DNA of 64,000 nucleotides from Komagataeibacter melomenusus (GTDB lineage Bacteria; Pseudomonadota; Alphaproteobacteria; Acetobacterales; Acetobacteraceae). The stretch is taken from the NCBI RefSeq assembly GCF_013155395.1, contig NZ_JABJWC010000001.1, positions 62,001 through 126,000 of the forward strand. The letters run 5' to 3'. The notes under the pieces were generated by a model that was not told where the DNA came from, did no database searches, and saw only the letters and a list, made by a program, of their open reading frames with translations. The position numbers and the translations under genes were made by a program. Positions 2,530 to 9,942 of this stretch are shown piece after piece; within the stretch, counting starts at the first letter, position 1; the number at the start of each line of letters is the position of its first letter.

Positions 2530-3762
2530 ATGGACCAGACCAGCTACCGCACGCTTGATGCAGGCGGCATCCGCGCATTCCTTGCCGGTCTGCCCGCCAT
2601 TGCCACCCGCCTTGGCGGCCTGCCCGAACAGTGGCAGGTGCGTGAGGTCAGTGATGGCAACCTCAACAACGTATTCCTCATCACCGGGCCTGCGGGGGAG
2701 GTATGCCTCAAGCAGTCGCTGCCGCATGTGCGCGTGGACCCGAGCTGGAAGATGCCGCTCGACCGCACATATTTCGAGGCCGCATGGCTTGCCGCCATCG
2801 GCCCGCTGGTGGGGGGACTGACCACCGAATACCTGCATTTCGACCCCGAACTCTATGTTCTGGTGGTCGAGAGCCTGTCCGGCCACACCGTGCTGCGCAC
2901 GGCGCTGATGGAAGGGGCGGACTGGCCGGAGGTCGCGCCCCGCATTGGCGCCTTCGTGGCCCGGGCCTGTTTTGGCACCTCACTGCTCGCCCGCCCGTTC
3001 GAGGATGTGTTTGACGCCCGCCGCCTCTTTGCCGCCAACCAGGCCCTGACCCGCATCACTCTCGACCTGGTGTTTGACGACCCGTACCGCGACCACCCGC
3101 GCAACCACTGGCATGATACCGCCCTGAGCCCCATCGTGCAGGACATCCGCACCAGTGCGGCAGCCCTTCTGGCGGTGGAAAACCTGCGGCGGCGCTTCCT
3201 GTCGCAGCCCCAGGCGCTGCTGCATGGCGACCTGCATACCGGCTCGATCATGAGCACGGCGGATGATACGCGCGTGATCGATGGCGAGTTCGCGCTTTAC
3301 GGGCCGATCGGGTTTGACTGCGGCATGTTCGTGGGCAACCTCGTGCTGCATTTCTTCGCAACACCCGACCTTGCGGCCCGGCGGGCGGCGCTGCGCGACA
3401 TCGCCAGCTTCTGGCGCAGCTTTCATGAGCAGTTCATGGCGCTATGGAACGCCAGTGACGCCCCGCCACCGGGCACCCTGCGCCCGCTGGCCTATGGCCC
3501 GGCGGCCCATGTGGCGCAGCAGGCCTTCATGGATGAGATGATGGGCGATACCATCGGCTTTGCCGCCATCGAGATCATCCGCCGCATCATCGGCTACGCC
3601 CATACGGCGGATTTCGATACCATCATTGATCCCCGCCTGCGCGCCACATGCCGCGCGGGCGCGCTGGCCTTCGCCTATTACGTGCTCGACCATCTGGCTG
3701 ACATGCGCACGATCTCGGATTTCCTGTCCTGCCTGGGCGAGAATGAGGGGAAGGGGCTGTAG
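2530..3762 (+). CDS. mtnK: S-methyl-5-thioribose kinase
   Basis: A 410-residue small-molecule kinase of the choline/aminoglycoside kinase fold that phosphorylates 5-methylthioribose in methionine salvage. Diagnostic features are the N-terminal nucleotide loop VSDGNLNNVFLI, the catalytic HGDLHTGS beginning at residue 232, and the metal-binding DGEFALYGPIGFD about 20 residues later; this HGDLHTGS/DGEFAxxGPxGFD pair is specific to MtnK. Length matches the family (about 400). No other salvage gene (mtnA, mtnB, mtnC, mtnD) is adjacent. It converges on hsdM with only 6 bp between the stop codons. Confidence 0.93.
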   Translation: MDQTSYRTLDAGGIRAFLAGLPAIATRLGGLPEQWQVREVSDGNLNNVFLITGPAGEVCLKQSLPHVRVDPSWKMPLDRTYFEAAWLAAIGPLVGGLTTEYLHFDPELYVLVVESLSGHTVLRTALMEGADWPEVAPRIGAFVARACFGTSLLARPFEDVFDARRLFAANQALTRITLDLVFDDPYRDHPRNHWHDTALSPIVQDIRTSAAALLAVENLRRRFLSQPQALLHGDLHTGSIMSTADDTRVIDGEFALYGPIGFDCGMFVGNLVLHFFATPDLAARRAALRDIASFWRSFHEQFMALWNASDAPPPGTLRPLAYGPAAHVAQQAFMDEMMGDTIGFAAIEIIRRIIGYAHTADFDTIIDPRLRATCRAGALAFAYYVLDHLADMRTISDFLSCLGENEGKGL

Positions 3763-3768
3763 AACCTT

Positions 3769-5397
3769 TCAGTCCATGCCGCCGGGCATGAGGGCTGCCA
3801 GCCGGGCCATGGAGGCGCGCAGGTCGGCCTCGATTTCTGGCAGGGGGCGACTGGGTTCGGGGGTATCGAAATACCGGGCAAATGAAATGGCACACCCAAT
3901 GCCCGCCCGCGCATGGTCCAGCCGGGCAGTGGGGTCATGGGGGGCGACCAGGTGGTCAAACCACGCCTGCGGATCGGTTTCCATGCCGGTGGTGAACACC
4001 ATGCGGGTGGGGGCGCCTGCGTGATCCATACAGGTCACGCTCAGGCTACGATATAAAAACCCCCGCGCTGGCACCTGGCGTGCAAAACCGGTGCGCCGCC
4101 CCAGCGGCACGCCCCCTTCAGGCGGTACGAGGCGCCATGAAGCCGGTGCGCCATCCGGACCATCGCGCACATCAAGATCGCATTCCGCGCCTTCAAGCGC
4201 CGCCTGCACCACGGCGGTCACGTGGGCCTGCGTCATCTCGCGCCGTTTCTCGCCCTGGCTGCGGCCGCACCGCCGCCACAGCGCTGCCGCATTGACCAGG
4301 CTGACCAGACCACGGCGGGCAGCGGGCTTGCTGTTATCCAGCACCCACACATAGGTGCCGATGCCGGTATTGATGAACATGTCCTGCGGCAGGGCTATGA
4401 CCGTATCGATCAGGTCATGCTCGACAAGATAGCGGCGAATGGCGGATTCCCCGCTCTCCACACCGCCACCGTTCAGGGCGGCGCCATGCGTCACCACGCC
4501 AATCCGGCTGCCGCCGTGGCGGGGGGCGCGCATCTTGGCCAGCAGGTGCAGCACGAACAGCATCGATCCATCAGACACGCGCGGCAGCCCCGGCGCGAAG
4601 CGCCCCTGCGCGCCCTGCGCGTGTTCCGCCTGTACGGCGGCGCGGATGGACCGCCAGTCCAGCCCGAAGGGGGGGTTGGCCAGCATGCGGCCAAAACGCT
4701 GGCGGGCATGGCCATCGGCCAGCAGCGTATCGCCCTGCACCACCTGCCGGGGCCTGAGCCCGCGCAGCAGCAGGTCGGCACGCGCCAGGGCACAGGACTG
4801 CGCGTTGAGTTCCTGCCCGTACAGATCCGCCATAACCCCGCGCGCGCGCAGCCGGTCAGCCGCCCGGGCAAGCAGGGCGCCGGTTCCGGCGGCGGGGTCG
4901 TAAAGCGCAAGGCGGGTGCCCGGCGCATCCGCAGCGCAGACGAGATCGACCATCAGGTCAGCCACCTCCGGCGGCGTGTAATGCGTGCCGGTGCCCTGCG
5001 TGGTGGTGAAATGGCTGACCAGTTCCTCGAACAGTTGCGCCATGGCTTCGCTGCCGTACAGGGCAGGAGAGAGGTCAAGGGCTGCGAAATGCGCGGCCAG
5101 CGGCCCCAGCATGCCAACTGCCGCCAGCCTGCGCGCAAGCCCGTCCACCTCAAGCTGCGCCATGATGGCGCGCATGGCGGCGGGCAGGCGCTCAAGCTGC
5201 CGCGCCATTACCCTGAGCGGGTCGGCCGCGCAGGCGATGGCCGCAAGCCCCCCCTTGGCGGGCGGCCGTGCCTGCTCGAGCCGCCGCAGCATGGTAAAGG
5301 CCAGTATCGCGGGCCCGTATTCAACCGGCGGCAGCACGCGGCGCAACTGGCCTGCAATGCGCCATATGGCAGTTGCTGACAGCAGGGGCGCGGTCAT
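3769..5397 (-). CDS. hsdM: Type I DNA methyltransferase, modification subunit (HsdM-like)
   Basis: A 542-residue N6-adenine DNA methyltransferase. The N-terminal helical HsdM domain is followed by motif X (GTHYTPPEVA, residues 137-146), S-adenosylmethionine motif I (DPAAGTG, 167-173) and catalytic motif IV (NPPFG, 241-245). The C-terminal helix (EIEADLRASMARLAALM) is the usual subunit contact. All catalytic motifs are intact, so the enzyme should work if a specificity subunit is supplied. An HsdS gene lies 1.8 kb away on the same strand, separated by two unrelated genes; no HsdR is present in the window. It sits 6 bp downstream of the AI-2E-type gene and may share its transcript. Confidence 0.88.
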   Translation of the reverse strand: MTAPLLSATAIWRIAGQLRRVLPPVEYGPAILAFTMLRRLEQARPPAKGGLAAIACAADPLRVMARQLERLPAAMRAIMAQLEVDGLARRLAAVGMLGPLAAHFAALDLSPALYGSEAMAQLFEELVSHFTTTQGTGTHYTPPEVADLMVDLVCAADAPGTRLALYDPAAGTGALLARAADRLRARGVMADLYGQELNAQSCALARADLLLRGLRPRQVVQGDTLLADGHARQRFGRMLANPPFGLDWRSIRAAVQAEHAQGAQGRFAPGLPRVSDGSMLFVLHLLAKMRAPRHGGSRIGVVTHGAALNGGGVESGESAIRRYLVEHDLIDTVIALPQDMFINTGIGTYVWVLDNSKPAARRGLVSLVNAAALWRRCGRSQGEKRREMTQAHVTAVVQAALEGAECDLDVRDGPDGAPASWRLVPPEGGVPLGRRTGFARQVPARGFLYRSLSVTCMDHAGAPTRMVFTTGMETDPQAWFDHLVAPHDPTARLDHARAGIGCAISFARYFDTPEPSRPLPEIEADLRASMARLAALMPGGMD

Positions 5398-5403
5398 GGC
5401 CGG

Positions 5404-6453
5404 TTAACGGGCGCGTTCTTCCGCCGCCGCCGTGCGCCATAGCGACAGGGCAACCGCAATGACCGCAGGCCCGATGAACAGCCCGAGCAGGCCAAACACA
5501 TGCAGGCCACCCAGAATGGCCGTCAGCACCGCAAGGAAGGGAATGCTGGTGCTGCCGCTGATCAGCTTGGGCCGCACGAAGTGATCGCCCGCGCCATAGG
5601 CGATGGTGCCGATCCCCCCCACGATCACCGCCTGCATCACGCCATTGGCCGCAAAGGTCATGAGCGTGGTCACGCATAGCAGGATCGGCCCGCAGAAGGG
5701 GATGACACTGACCACCGCCGTCACCAGTGTGAGCAGGGCGGGGTGGGGGGTGCCCGCAATGAAGTAGCCAATGCCCACCAGCACGCCCTGGCCCAGCCCC
5801 ACCAGCACCAACCCCGCCACCGTGCCGCGCACGGCGCCCACGGTGTTGCGGATCACGTCCCGCGCGCGCGCACCCAGAAAATGCTGCCCGACCGCGCGGA
5901 TATCGGCAATGAGCGTTTGCGAGGCATGGAGATAGAAATAGACCGACAGCGTGGCGATGACGAAGGTTTCGGTCATTTCCATCAGGCGGTGCGGCAGTTC
6001 GCGCCCGTCGCCGGTGGCCACCATGCGCGACACCACGCCGGTCCAGTGCCGCAGTTCATCGGGGTCGGACAGGTAGCGCCGCCACAGCCCGGCCAGCCTG
6101 GGGCCAACACGCGGAATGTCATCGACCTGCGGCGAGACGGGAATGCCATCATGCAGCGCGGTCCGCCCCCATGCCATGAGCGAGGGAATTTCCAGCCCCG
6201 CCCGCACGGCCATGGCAATCATGGGCACGGCCAGCAGCGCGAAGATACCCGCCGCGATCAGCCCTGCGGCCACCCCACGCCCCATGCCGCGCCCCACCAG
6301 CCGCGTATAGAGCGGGAAGGTGGTGATGGTGAGGATACCACCCCACACGAAGGCAAACAGGAATGACTGTTCGATCCATGCGGAAAACAGCAGGACCGCG
6401 CAGACGAACATGAAGGTACCGATATACTGGGTCCGGCTCCGGTTTTCTTCCAT
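5404..6453 (-). CDS. AI-2E family membrane transporter
   Basis: A roughly 349-residue membrane protein with N-terminal helices (CAVLLFSAWIEQSFLFAFVWGG), a long soluble segment in the middle, and a C-terminal block of helices with the family signatures GPILL, GAGDHFVRPKLISG and FGLLGLFIGP. Members of this family have been linked to autoinducer-2 export and to sodium/proton antiport, so the substrate cannot be assigned. The start is taken as the ATG at 6453, where family-like sequence begins; a TTG at 6504 would add 17 residues. The gene ends 6 bp before hsdM. Confidence 0.85.
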   Translation of the reverse strand: MEENRSRTQYIGTFMFVCAVLLFSAWIEQSFLFAFVWGGILTITTFPLYTRLVGRGMGRGVAAGLIAAGIFALLAVPMIAMAVRAGLEIPSLMAWGRTALHDGIPVSPQVDDIPRVGPRLAGLWRRYLSDPDELRHWTGVVSRMVATGDGRELPHRLMEMTETFVIATLSVYFYLHASQTLIADIRAVGQHFLGARARDVIRNTVGAVRGTVAGLVLVGLGQGVLVGIGYFIAGTPHPALLTLVTAVVSVIPFCGPILLCVTTLMTFAANGVMQAVIVGGIGTIAYGAGDHFVRPKLISGSTSIPFLAVLTAILGGLHVFGLLGLFIGPAVIAVALSLWRTAAAEERAR

Positions 6454-6655
6454 AGGGCGTGTTCTATCCTGCTGGGGTTCATCAAAGGCTGCACCATAAC
6501 GCAATAACGCACAGGCCGCCCATTGTGGCAGGTGGCGCGTGCCCCGTGGTCATGTCAGCACAGGGTAGAGGCCCGGCTTATAAAAAACACCACCCATCTT
6601 GCCCATGCAGGCACAAGCTGGTCCATTGGTAGCCCTTTTCCGACCCGGACACGAC

Positions 6656-7186
6656 ATGCCCCGCTCTCCCAGGACCTTTTTTACCGCCGACACCCATTTC
6701 GGCCATGCCAACATCATCCGCTACACGAAACGACCCTTTGAAACGGCAGCCGAAATGGATGCGGTACTGGTCAGCAACTGGAACGCCACCGTCGGCCCCG
6801 ATGATGACGTGTGGCACCTGGGCGACGTGGCCCACGGCACACAGCGGGCAGAGGCGATCCTGCCGCGGCTGAATGGCCGAAAGCACCTGATCTGGGGCAA
6901 CCATGACAGTGAAGCCGTGCGGAACTGGCAGGGGTGGGTGTCCTCGCAGGCCTATGCCGAACTCAGGCTTGATGGCCGCAGGGTGGTGCTGTTTCATTAT
7001 CCCATCGCGGAATGGAATGGCTTCTGGCACGACAGCCTGCATTTTTATGGGCATGTGCATGACAGGCTCACGCCCACCAGCCTGTCATGTGATGTGGGGG
7101 TGGATGTGTGGGATTACCGGCCCGTGGCCTTCAATGACATCGTGGAAACCATCAGCGCCCTGGCCCCGCCCGCACGCCCTGCCTGA
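6656..7186 (+). CDS. Metallophosphoesterase
   Basis: A roughly 176-residue calcineurin-like phosphoesterase. The metal motifs are in order: FFTADTHFGHANI (the DxH site with a second GH), DDVWHLGDV (GD), WGNHD (GNHD), and FHYPIAEW and YGHVHD near the end (H and GHVH). The compact size and the FGHANII sequence match the small YfcE-like or phage-associated phosphoesterase group, and the natural substrate is unknown. The ATG at 6656 is chosen because the metal-site strand starts a few residues later; an ATG at 6605 would add 17 residues. It is the only plus-strand gene between hsdM and hsdS, and it converges on hsdS. Confidence 0.87.
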   Translation: MPRSPRTFFTADTHFGHANIIRYTKRPFETAAEMDAVLVSNWNATVGPDDDVWHLGDVAHGTQRAEAILPRLNGRKHLIWGNHDSEAVRNWQGWVSSQAYAELRLDGRRVVLFHYPIAEWNGFWHDSLHFYGHVHDRLTPTSLSCDVGVDVWDYRPVAFNDIVETISALAPPARPA

Positions 7187-7231
7187 TACGGGCGGGCCGC
7201 AACGCGCCGCCAGGAATGCGCCGCCTGCCCA

Positions 7232-8398
7232 TCACGCGCCCATCGCAGATCGCCGCACGGCAATGCGGTATTCATGCAACAGGCCACGCAGTCGGGCCCG
7301 TTCTCCAGCCTGTGCCGCAACATGCTCCAGTCGTGCCCACGCCGCCTGCGCCACCTGGCGCTGGCCTGCCAGCGCCGGAAAGGTCAGTTCCAGCGAGGCC
7401 AGGGTGAGGGTATCCACCTCGGGGAACACGCTGCCCCCCGCGCGGCGGCGCAGTTCCGGCCCTGCCGCCCATAACGCCAGCGCCGCGTAGCGCAGGTCCA
7501 CCCCACGCCCGCGCGGCACCAGCGCCTTGCACCCCTGGCTGACGGCAAGCGGGCCGCATCCCAGCCCCACCCGGCCCACAGGGGCGCGGGTTGATACCAC
7601 CAGCGCGCCCGCAGGCACCAGCGTGGCCCGGCACGCCGCCAGCCCCGCCGCCGAGAGGCCGCGCAGCCCGCGCGCCACCACCGCAGGCGGCCCGGATGGC
7701 AGGTCAGCAGGGGTTATCCACGCCACGTCATCGCCCCAGTAGGCGGCGTGGGTCGTGGCGGGTGTGCCCCCGCCGGTAATGTCAAACACATGCCCCAGCA
7801 ACCGCCGCGTGCCGCCTGCCGCCCCGATGGCCTGCGTGATGATGGCCCGGACCTGCTCCGGACCCAGCGCGTCAAGCCTGTCCAGCACGCGCAACTGCCC
7901 GTCAATGCGTTGCAGGCGGCCCTCGAGCCGGTCGGCCACAAGGCGCTGGCAGGCAAGGGAAGGACAGGGAACCGGCAGGCTGTTCATGCGCGCGCGCGTG
8001 AGCTTGGTGCGGGTCGCCCCCTCCACATACGGACCGTAGGACAGGGTATTGAGGGCATGCGCCACGAAGCGGCCATCCACGCCCGCGCGCGGGCGCAGCA
8101 CATGCACGTGGTTGCCCGCCCATAGCGGCCCTTCATGAAAGAACGCGACATCACGCGATGGATCAGAAAACGGCGCGCCGTCTTCCCCCAGCAGCACGAG
8201 CGCGCCATCAAACAGTGCCTGATCGACATGCCCGGTCACGCCACTGGCCCCATGATAGGGCACAGGCCCCGGACGCTGCGCCCGCTGCGCGCGGTTAAGG
8301 GGCACGCGGGCCGCATCAAGGCATTCCACCAGGGCGCCCAGCGGCACCACGGGCCATGCCCGGGGCGGGGGTGGAGGCGGGCGATCATGGCACGTCAT
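7232..8398 (-). CDS. hsdS: Type I DNA methyltransferase, specificity subunit (HsdS-like)
   Basis: A 388-residue protein with the two half-repeats of HsdS. Target recognition domain 1 runs from WPVVPLGALVE to ARMNSLPVPCPSLACQRLVAD, followed by a helical spacer (LQRIDGQLRVLDRL). Target recognition domain 2 starts at LLGHVFDITGGGTPATTHAAYWG and ends in LELTFPALAGQRQVAQAAWARL. The repeated phrase (LPVPCPSLACQ and LTFPALAGQ) is the central conserved region where HsdM docks. The recognised sequence cannot be read from the protein. AAGGATGAGGC precedes the ATG. It probably partners the HsdM at 3769-5397. Confidence 0.88.
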   Translation of the reverse strand: MTCHDRPPPPPPRAWPVVPLGALVECLDAARVPLNRAQRAQRPGPVPYHGASGVTGHVDQALFDGALVLLGEDGAPFSDPSRDVAFFHEGPLWAGNHVHVLRPRAGVDGRFVAHALNTLSYGPYVEGATRTKLTRARMNSLPVPCPSLACQRLVADRLEGRLQRIDGQLRVLDRLDALGPEQVRAIITQAIGAAGGTRRLLGHVFDITGGGTPATTHAAYWGDDVAWITPADLPSGPPAVVARGLRGLSAAGLAACRATLVPAGALVVSTRAPVGRVGLGCGPLAVSQGCKALVPRGRGVDLRYAALALWAAGPELRRRAGGSVFPEVDTLTLASLELTFPALAGQRQVAQAAWARLEHVAAQAGERARLRGLLHEYRIAVRRSAMGA

Positions 8399-8580: not shown

Positions 8581-9942
8581 ATGACGCGTCCAACCACATC
8601 CTTCGGGGCGGAATTCCGTTCCATCCTTGCCATTGCCGGACCGATGGGCCTGTCACAGTTCGCCCAGATGCTGATGGGGCTGACCGATGACGTCCTGCTC
8701 GGCAGCCTGGGGGCGGCGGCCCTTGCCATTGGCGGGCTGGCCACGGGCACGTTCTTCACGCTCAACGCCATCCTTGCCGCCATGATCGAGGCAGGCGGCA
8801 TCCTGCTCTCGCAGGCGCGCGGGCGGCAGGACCATGCAAGCCTCGGCACCACAATCACCTCCATGCTCGTGGTCGCCATCATGCTGTGCGGGCCGGAACT
8901 GTTCTGCCTGTACCACATCGACCGGCTCCTGGCATGGCTGCACGAGCCCGAGGCCATCCGCGCGCCGGTAACCGCGTTCGTGCATATCCTGATGTGGGCG
9001 GTGCCGCCTGCGTTGCTGGGCCAGGGCGTGCTGACCACGGCGCTGCCGGTCATGGGGGCACAGGGCATTCTCATGCGGGTCATGCCGTGTGTTACGGTGG
9101 TGAACGGGGTGCTGAATGCAACGCTCATCCACGGCTGGTTCGGCCTGCCCGCGCTGGGGCTGCACGGGTCGGCGGTGGCGACGGTCATCACCCTGTGGTG
9201 CATGCCCCTCATCCTGCTGGCGTTCATGGCGCGCAGGCCCGAGCTGCGCACCGCCCTGCGCCCGCGCGCGCATGACTGGAAGCATACCGCCGCCCTGCTG
9301 CGCACCGGCCTGCCCATGCTGGCCGCCGCGATGGCGGAGGTGACACTGTTCCAGGCCAACAGCCTCGAGGCCGCCAGGCTGGGCAATGCGGGGCTTGCGG
9401 CATTCCAGATCATGCTGGGCATCGGCATGCAGTGCTTCGTGCTGTACCTGGCCATGGCGCAGGCAAGCAACATACGGGTGGCCTACTGGACGGGACGCAA
9501 CGACCCGGCCATGGTCCGCCGCGCCGCCGGTGCGGGCATGGCGCTGGGCATGGGGGTGGCCTGCCTGGCCACGCTCGTTCTGGCCGCAGGGCGGCAGACC
9601 ATCATCGGCTTCTATCTTGATGCGGCCCTGCCGGAAAACGCGCAGGCGGTGCATCTCGCACTCGCCCTGCTGATGGCGGGCGCAATCTTTCAGGTGCCTG
9701 ATGCCCTGCAGGCCATCGCCACAGGCATCCTGCGCGGGCAGGGCGATACCACCATCCCCATGGTGCTGGCGGTTATCGGCTACTGGGGGATTGGCTTTCC
9801 CGCTGGCATCGTCCTAGCCTTTGACCGCGGCATGGGCGTGCAGGGCCTGTGGTACGGCATTGGCATGGGGCTGGTGGCGGTATTCGTGCTTCATGGCACC
9901 CGCATCGCGTGGCGCATGAAGCAAGTGGTGCAAAAAGGGTAG
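8581..9942 (+). CDS. MATE family multidrug/metabolite exporter
   Basis: A 453-residue integral membrane protein with about 12 predicted helices in two pseudo-repeats, characteristic of NorM/MATE cation-coupled exporters. Family marks include an N-terminal AxPMGLSQFAQMLMGLTDDVLLG and the second-repeat TGLPMLAAAMAEVTLFQAN, plus DALQAIATGILRGQGDT in the tenth-helix region. Start ATG at 8581 is preceded by GGGGG at short spacing. The substrate is unknown. It ends shortly before one of the dispersed hairpin repeats. Confidence 0.9.
   Translation: MTRPTTSFGAEFRSILAIAGPMGLSQFAQMLMGLTDDVLLGSLGAAALAIGGLATGTFFTLNAILAAMIEAGGILLSQARGRQDHASLGTTITSMLVVAIMLCGPELFCLYHIDRLLAWLHEPEAIRAPVTAFVHILMWAVPPALLGQGVLTTALPVMGAQGILMRVMPCVTVVNGVLNATLIHGWFGLPALGLHGSAVATVITLWCMPLILLAFMARRPELRTALRPRAHDWKHTAALLRTGLPMLAAAMAEVTLFQANSLEAARLGNAGLAAFQIMLGIGMQCFVLYLAMAQASNIRVAYWTGRNDPAMVRRAAGAGMALGMGVACLATLVLAAGRQTIIGFYLDAALPENAQAVHLALALLMAGAIFQVPDALQAIATGILRGQGDTTIPMVLAVIGYWGIGFPAGIVLAFDRGMGVQGLWYGIGMGLVAVFVLHGTRIAWRMKQVVQKG

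Follow-up and report, generated by a model that had tools for sequence, protein, structure and literature searches.

A putative orphan type I DNA methyltransferase encoded by a split gene pair across Komagataeibacter

The question raised by this locus is whether a type I DNA methyltransferase whose two genes lie apart, with no restriction gene beside them, is a working enzyme or the residue of a restriction-modification (R-M) system. The window, a 64,000-nucleotide stretch of the Komagataeibacter melomenusus genome (assembly GCF_013155395.1, contig NZ_JABJWC010000001.1, positions 62,001 to 126,000), carries hsdM and hsdS, for the modification and specificity subunits, on one strand and on either side of a gene for an AI-2E family membrane protein. 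The best explanation for the locus as a whole, to which we assign a probability of roughly 0.8, is a working orphan methyltransferase with one genus-wide bipartite target and no cognate HsdR (the restriction subunit), which would have been domesticated from a complete system. On sequence grounds, the pair very probably encodes an active orphan type I adenine methyltransferase. A role in regulation or chromosome maintenance rather than in protection appears slightly favored.

The gene pair and its distribution

hsdM (3769-5397, minus strand) encodes a 542-residue N6-adenine DNA methyltransferase subunit (PF02384, E = 2.4e-44; PADLOC MTase_I PDLC03029, E = 1.5e-121), whose relatives in the Protein Data Bank include EcoR124II HsdM (7bst_D, E = 5.6e-19). 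As the preliminary description of the locus had it, two functional motifs are intact, namely the S-adenosylmethionine (SAM)-binding DPAAGTG (residues 167-173; 4879-4899, minus strand) and the catalytic NPPFG (residues 241-245; 4663-4677, minus strand), which we take to be motifs I-like and IV-like, respectively. hsdS (7232-8398, minus strand) encodes a type I specificity subunit of 388 residues with two PF01420 (Methylase_S) stretches (E = 5.7e-18); its matches in the structure database include 1yf2 (E = 1.2e-21) and EcoR124II HsdS (7bst_A, E = 2.7e-06). Together, the genes show the hallmarks of a type I methyltransferase: an N6_Mtase domain, intact SAM-binding and catalytic motifs, and an HsdS with two target recognition domains (TRDs). 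The pair does not match the MADS system (mad2/mad5), since the mad2 model NF047738 scores 22.6 bits against a cut-off of 720, and the PADLOC mad2 and mad5 models score lower than the best type I models.

Among 19 Komagataeibacter genomes, HsdM orthologues are present in 18 (63-89% identity) and HsdS in the same 18 (66-87%), so that, like Dam and CcrM, the pair is conserved in well over half of a genus. The order mtnK, hsdM, AI-2E, hsdS, MATE and its orientation are constant in all 18 carriers. mtnK adjoins hsdM in 17 of them, and the 8.3 kb contig of the eighteenth (G151) stops short of mtnK; a MATE transporter gene adjoins hsdS in all 18, although one contig (G159) ends after the first 44 MATE residues. 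Because both genes are syntenic in 18 of 19 genomes in the order hsdS-AI-2E-hsdM, the split layout is neither recent nor a product of decay. Its earlier reading as a hint of decay is thus not borne out: a genus-wide arrangement around AI-2E is by itself no sign of degeneration. A recent insertion into an hsdM-hsdS operon was likewise rejected, as the S-AI-2E-M order of all 18 carriers is the reverse of that in related M-S-R loci. At the family level, HsdS at E ≤ 1e-40 was found in 13 of 397 sampled genomes and in 1 of 102 genera, in a sample that held part of the genus only.

The pair lacks the linked cognate hsdR of a complete type I R-M system, and its two genes lack the usual adjacency. The assembly, which has 146 contigs with a completeness of 100 and a contamination of 1.31, was searched with profiles at E ≤ 0.001, which gave N6_Mtase matches at two places, Methylase_S matches in two genes, one HSDR_N match, and one SWI2_SNF2 match. 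No hsdR was found in the window by the HSDR_N and SWI2_SNF2 searches, in agreement with the preliminary description; the single genome-wide match to each profile lies on contig C11. The locus there (L038:2897-10186) is complete, with hsdM, hsdS, an open reading frame (ORF) of 332 aa, and hsdR (L038:6791-10186, 1131 aa). An hsdR does therefore exist elsewhere in the genome, but it is accompanied by an hsdM and an hsdS of its own, and its type occurs in 3 of the 19 genomes. C11 is considered a different system because its HsdM matches the orphan at just 23% identity across 242 residues. Among the three C11-type loci (L038, L164, L165), HsdM and HsdR are >91% identical, HsdS 33-36%, and the extra 332-aa ORF about 77%.

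Across the genus, HSDR_N matches occur in 18 of 19 genomes and an HsdR-type SWI2_SNF2 match in 15 of the 18 carriers. In G135, G164, and G155, the sole HSDR_N matches fall in frames of 387-392 aa and no SWI2_SNF2 match is found genome-wide; G162 has a match to neither profile. Three carriers (G135, G162, G164) consequently keep hsdM and hsdS with no detectable HsdR, that is, with no SWI2_SNF2 match and no HSDR_N match of HsdR size. A 380-aa ORF in G135 (L141:1327-2469) is too short for the motor part of HsdR. Frames of 380-392 aa with a partial HSDR_N match occur in G135, G155 (two), G156, G152, G160, G163, and G164, and may represent a stand-alone nuclease-like protein.

For G155, the genome without the pair, searches gave neither an HsdM match (E ≤ 1e-10) nor an HsdS match (E ≤ 1e-5). 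The locus itself retains mtnK, AI-2E (95%), a phosphoesterase gene (87%), MATE, serA, and hisN, and the losses occurred at two separate spots: hsdM is missing between mtnK and AI-2E, and hsdS between the phosphoesterase gene and MATE, where a 19-residue HsdS-like scrap (E = 0.009) is left. In this one case, the two separate losses are compatible with a unit whose parts have no use on their own.

Constraint on the pair and on the HsdS domains

The ratio of nonsynonymous to synonymous substitution rates (dN/dS) was compared within and between six xylinus-group genomes (group A) and eleven others that do not form a clade (group B, with G151 left out). Median values for hsdM are 0.19 (A), 0.27 (B), and 0.28 (A-B), and those for hsdS are 0.23, 0.28, and 0.28; they are approximate because dS between the groups is near 1. 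Both genes are under purifying selection. The neighboring genes give 0.10-0.18 (mtnK), 0.14-0.24 (MATE), 0.13-0.16 (hisN), and 0.02-0.05 (serA) and, when trimmed to later starts, 0.08-0.14 (AI-2E, with G163 dropped) and 0.16 (phosphoesterase); bfr was excluded from the comparison. The motifs DPxxGTG and NPPFG are present in all 17 orphan HsdM sequences compared, again leaving out G151, where a seemingly broken hsdM was traced to a frameshift caused by an N in the assembly. Distances of hsdM and hsdS track those of the flanking genes (r = 0.944 and 0.957, in 15 genomes with all seven genes), as expected under vertical inheritance.

Constraint is distributed unevenly along HsdS. With domain limits set from the Pfam hits and a two-block conservation profile, and with identities given as between-group means (G151 included in B), TRD1 (residues 16-150; 7949-8353, minus strand) is 82% identical with a dN/dS of 0.13, and TRD2 (residues 201-345; 7364-7798, minus strand) 72% identical with a dN/dS of 0.23. 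The corresponding values are 40% and 0.57 for the central spacer (residues 151-200; 7799-7948, minus strand) and 45% and 0.58 for the C-terminal region (residues 346-388; 7235-7363, minus strand). Twelve loci representing five complete type I systems, eleven loci from Komagataeibacter and one (L099) from genus g73, served as a control in nine pairs. Their HsdM and HsdR are 90-96% and 89-97% identical. When their HsdS is split by the domain limits of the orphan, the spacer is 73-91% and the C-terminus 41-84% identical, and TRD1 16-34%; TRD2 is 14-33% identical in seven pairs but reaches 84% and 99% in the remaining two. The TRD alignments are rough since these domains are so dissimilar. The HsdS of L175/L176 and of L108/L109 are half-swapped, with a common TRD2 (99% and 84%) and a different TRD1 (26% and 17%).

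The complete systems compared thus keep the HsdS scaffold and exchange at least one TRD per pair, whereas the orphan keeps its TRDs and lets the scaffold drift. This reversed order of constraint suggests that selection acts on the methylated sequence itself.

Origin of the pair and competing explanations

HsdM matches at E ≤ 1e-30 occur in 33 of 150 sampled family genomes, three of them in the genus. The 20 related loci analyzed comprise two second copies from inside the genus and loci from 18 of the 30 genomes that have matches outside it. All three genes were found in 17 of these loci, invariably in the order M-S-R, the reverse of the S-then-M order in the window; L101 and L110 showed M alone and L105 M and S. 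One of the 17, L094 (G126, outside the genus), has hsdM and hsdR each in two frames, owing to decay or assembly error. A tree of 17 orphans, 18 relatives (L094 and L098 were dropped as too short), and 7 outgroup HsdM places the orphans in one clade (100/100) on a long branch (1.62), nested among R-M relatives, with support of 98/99 for a group that contains orphans and relatives but excludes L110 and L102. This placement should be read with caution, given the long branch and differences in composition. The closest HsdM relatives found belong to family R-M loci L091-L109 and are 35-42% identical over long stretches (L094, with its broken frames, left out). In contrast to the window pair, nearly all of these loci keep hsdR, in the order M-S-R. 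Their subunits are mostly 611-679 aa (HsdM) and 425-494 aa (HsdS), compared to 538-584 aa (17 copies) and 383-404 aa (18 copies) in the orphans, and orphan HsdM is shorter than its R-M relatives by about 35 residues in the N-terminal domain and by about 19 close to the C-terminus. The missing segments correspond to R-M residues about 58-96 and 511-532 in L096 numbering. Descent of the pair from a complete hsdM-hsdS-hsdR system is supported by these comparisons.

Several observations weigh against a working enzyme with a single conserved target. One genome in 19 (G155) manages without the pair, and the scan of the locus gave no sigma-70-like promoter, which is a weak test in a GC-rich genome. 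The absence of the N-terminal residues in orphan HsdM could affect activity. Among the cleanly compared genes, hsdM and hsdS have the highest dN/dS, which indicates moderate constraint, and their distances grow faster than the mean for four flanking genes, by factors of 2.4 and 2.1, respectively. The correlation between HsdM and HsdS distances (0.967) barely exceeds that of either with the flanks, so co-evolution beyond common descent is not supported. Finally, the orphan TRDs are no better kept than neighboring genes (82% and 72% versus 79% for mtnK, 78% for MATE, and 86% for AI-2E), and the target may therefore have shifted in some species.

The alternative that survives best is a protective methyltransferase, which would shield the chromosome from same-specificity restriction systems on plasmids or phages and would not serve gene regulation. 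An orphan type I methyltransferase would indeed block restriction at its own motif, and the frequency of SWI2_SNF2 matches among the carriers implies that type I restriction enzymes circulate in the genus. This explanation is nevertheless unlikely, as a single genus-wide specificity guards against one enzyme only and the HsdS TRDs of the complete systems are strongly divergent. Moreover, only 2 of the 19 genomes (G152 and G161) carry, at 90-100% identity, an HsdR of the L108-type branch, the one that occurs alongside the closest HsdM relatives, and each of these has its own M and S; the other matches in the genus are 23-33% identical or, in G160, one short piece of 58%.

A second alternative concerns the genes in between. 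The AI-2E gene (5404-6504, minus strand; PF01594, AI-2E_transport, E = 7.8e-26) has a likely start at 6453 (MEENRS) and stops 6 nt ahead of the hsdM start. This spacing in the window, and the location of AI-2E between the two methyltransferase genes in all 18 carriers, would suit a three-gene unit in which the membrane protein has a function, for instance as a tether or by coupling methylation to the state of the envelope. Such a unit is very improbable. AI-2E is probably a neighbor and not a subunit because G155 keeps it after the loss of both methyltransferase genes. Its distances follow those of HsdM and HsdS at 0.79 and 0.77 (starts untrimmed), as opposed to 0.97 between HsdM and HsdS. In genus g73, which holds the nearest AI-2E matches beyond Komagataeibacter (60-61% identical), the surroundings of AI-2E gave no match to the compared neighbors. 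Those surroundings were also considered as a picture of the empty site and proved uninformative, as AI-2E lies elsewhere there.

The metallophosphoesterase-like gene (6599-7186, plus strand) between hsdS and AI-2E matches Metallophos_2 weakly, at 25.0 bits against a cut-off of 27, and has a likely start at 6656, given stops upstream of that point in relatives. All four genes lie at the positions and on the strands first reported. The gap that holds the phosphoesterase gene (6505-7231; the same gap in L112-L128) is a small insertion spot whose content varies by clade. In the seven xylinus-group loci, the gene is intact in four (G000, G163, G135, G155), disrupted in two (G164, G165), and not found in one (G162), and it was not found in the other 12 loci, outside that group. 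Six genomes (G150, G161, G152, G156, G159, G151) instead have a same-strand GNAT acetyltransferase gene, identified by profile in one of the six ORFs (PF00583, E = 2.9e-16) and by sequence similarity in the other five; six further genomes have neither, and a gap of 94-227 nt. The HsdM tree recovers one clade each (100/100) for the phosphoesterase and GNAT groups and splits the six genomes without either gene between two clades; G151 and G155 are outside the tree, and G155 is assigned to the xylinus group because most of its flanking genes match that group at 92-99% protein identity. Because gap content differs between genomes, the phosphoesterase gene is a clade-specific passenger and AI-2E the constant element. 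Of the two genes initially described as splitting the pair, only AI-2E holds up genus-wide. The phosphoesterase was rejected as a working part, being confined to the xylinus group with three of seven copies disrupted or not found.

The outer neighbors mark the syntenic place on both sides. mtnK (2530-3762, plus strand; TIGR01767, 355 bits against a cut-off of 275) encodes S-methyl-5-thioribose kinase and converges with hsdM, the two ends lying 6 nt apart, and the MATE transporter gene (8581-9942, plus strand; TIGR00797, above cut-off) diverges from hsdS. A methionine salvage kinase thus lies beside a SAM-using enzyme; a functional link is unlikely because G155 keeps mtnK without hsdM.

It is highly improbable that the pair borrows HsdR in trans from another type I system such as C11 and so forms a genuine restriction system whose genes are dispersed: one HsdR is indeed encoded in the genome, but this protein has its own HsdM and HsdS, that HsdM is remote from the orphan, its type is rare in the genus, and in three carriers no HsdR was detected. 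Equally hard to credit is a decaying, non-functional remnant, for although hsdR is gone, the genes lie apart and evolve faster than their neighbors, and both were lost in one genome, all 17 readable hsdM have open frames and catalytic motifs, dN/dS is well below 1, the TRDs are the most constrained part of HsdS, and local decay looks different, as the phosphoesterase next door illustrates. The earlier suggestion of a remnant of a once complete system therefore stands as to descent, given an HsdM nested among complete R-M loci, but not as to decay. The suggestion of an orphan methyltransferase is sustained, its proposed role left aside, by synteny in 18 of 19 genomes, purifying selection, kept TRDs, the lack of a cognate hsdR, and the three carriers without HsdR.

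Known orphan methyltransferases and a possible role

Three kinds of known enzyme offer comparisons. EcoR124II, a restricting system with HsdR, matches both subunits at low similarity. Dam, CcrM, and similar orphans are type II enzymes with short, mostly continuous targets, and the Mycobacterium tuberculosis complex, home of MamC/MamS, belongs to another phylum than Komagataeibacter. MamC/MamS (Rv2756c/Rv2761c, formerly HsdM/HsdS) is, like the window pair, a type I-like M and S without functional HsdR, with genes that are non-adjacent going by their locus numbers, and it has been reported as an orphan methyltransferase whose sites include variable and hypomethylated ones (PMC7591249). It differs in having an extra specificity-subunit fragment (Rv2755) and in that its methylation was measured, that of the window pair being predicted. 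By arrangement and description, MamC/MamS is a precedent for the window pair, whose M and S are intact and under selection in the absence of R.

Dam, CcrM, and other orphan type II methyltransferases share with the pair genus-level conservation without a restriction enzyme; in Blow et al. 2016, such conservation applies to 57% of orphan and 9% of R-M methyltransferases, a figure on type II (PMC4752239). Unlike them, the window pair is a two-gene type I enzyme with a predicted bipartite target. A 2026 review notes that, according to some comparative analyses, certain orphans may have arisen when the restriction enzyme was lost (PMC13076061). The kind, an orphan type I methyltransferase, is already known; judged by titles and abstract openings, no description of this enzyme and no genus-wide case in Komagataeibacter was found in the open-licence literature.

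The proposed enzyme would consist of HsdS and two HsdM (probably M2S1), bind one asymmetric bipartite sequence, the same across Komagataeibacter, and methylate an adenine (N6-methyladenine, 6mA) in each half. We infer its activity, its assembly, and its identical target throughout the genus from the genes described above, and its housekeeping or gene-regulatory role, which is probable, from likeness to other genus-conserved orphan methyltransferases. Unmethylated sites covered by protein are a known route to regulation, and in an enzyme free of restriction, protein-covered sites could stay unmethylated in this way. A complete hsdM-hsdS-hsdR ancestor would have become a core chromosomal gene pair around the AI-2E gene. 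More tentatively, a type I system may have been domesticated once at the base of Komagataeibacter, with HsdR lost, HsdM and HsdS trimmed, and the target frozen, to become a CcrM/Dam-like regulator with a long bipartite target.

If this history is true, all carriers would share one 6mA motif that is missing in lineages like G155. Kept TRDs on a drifting scaffold would be an evolutionary sign of domestication that needs no methylome to be read and could serve in screens of further genera. For Komagataeibacter, the pair may represent an undescribed epigenetic layer in industrial cellulose producers.

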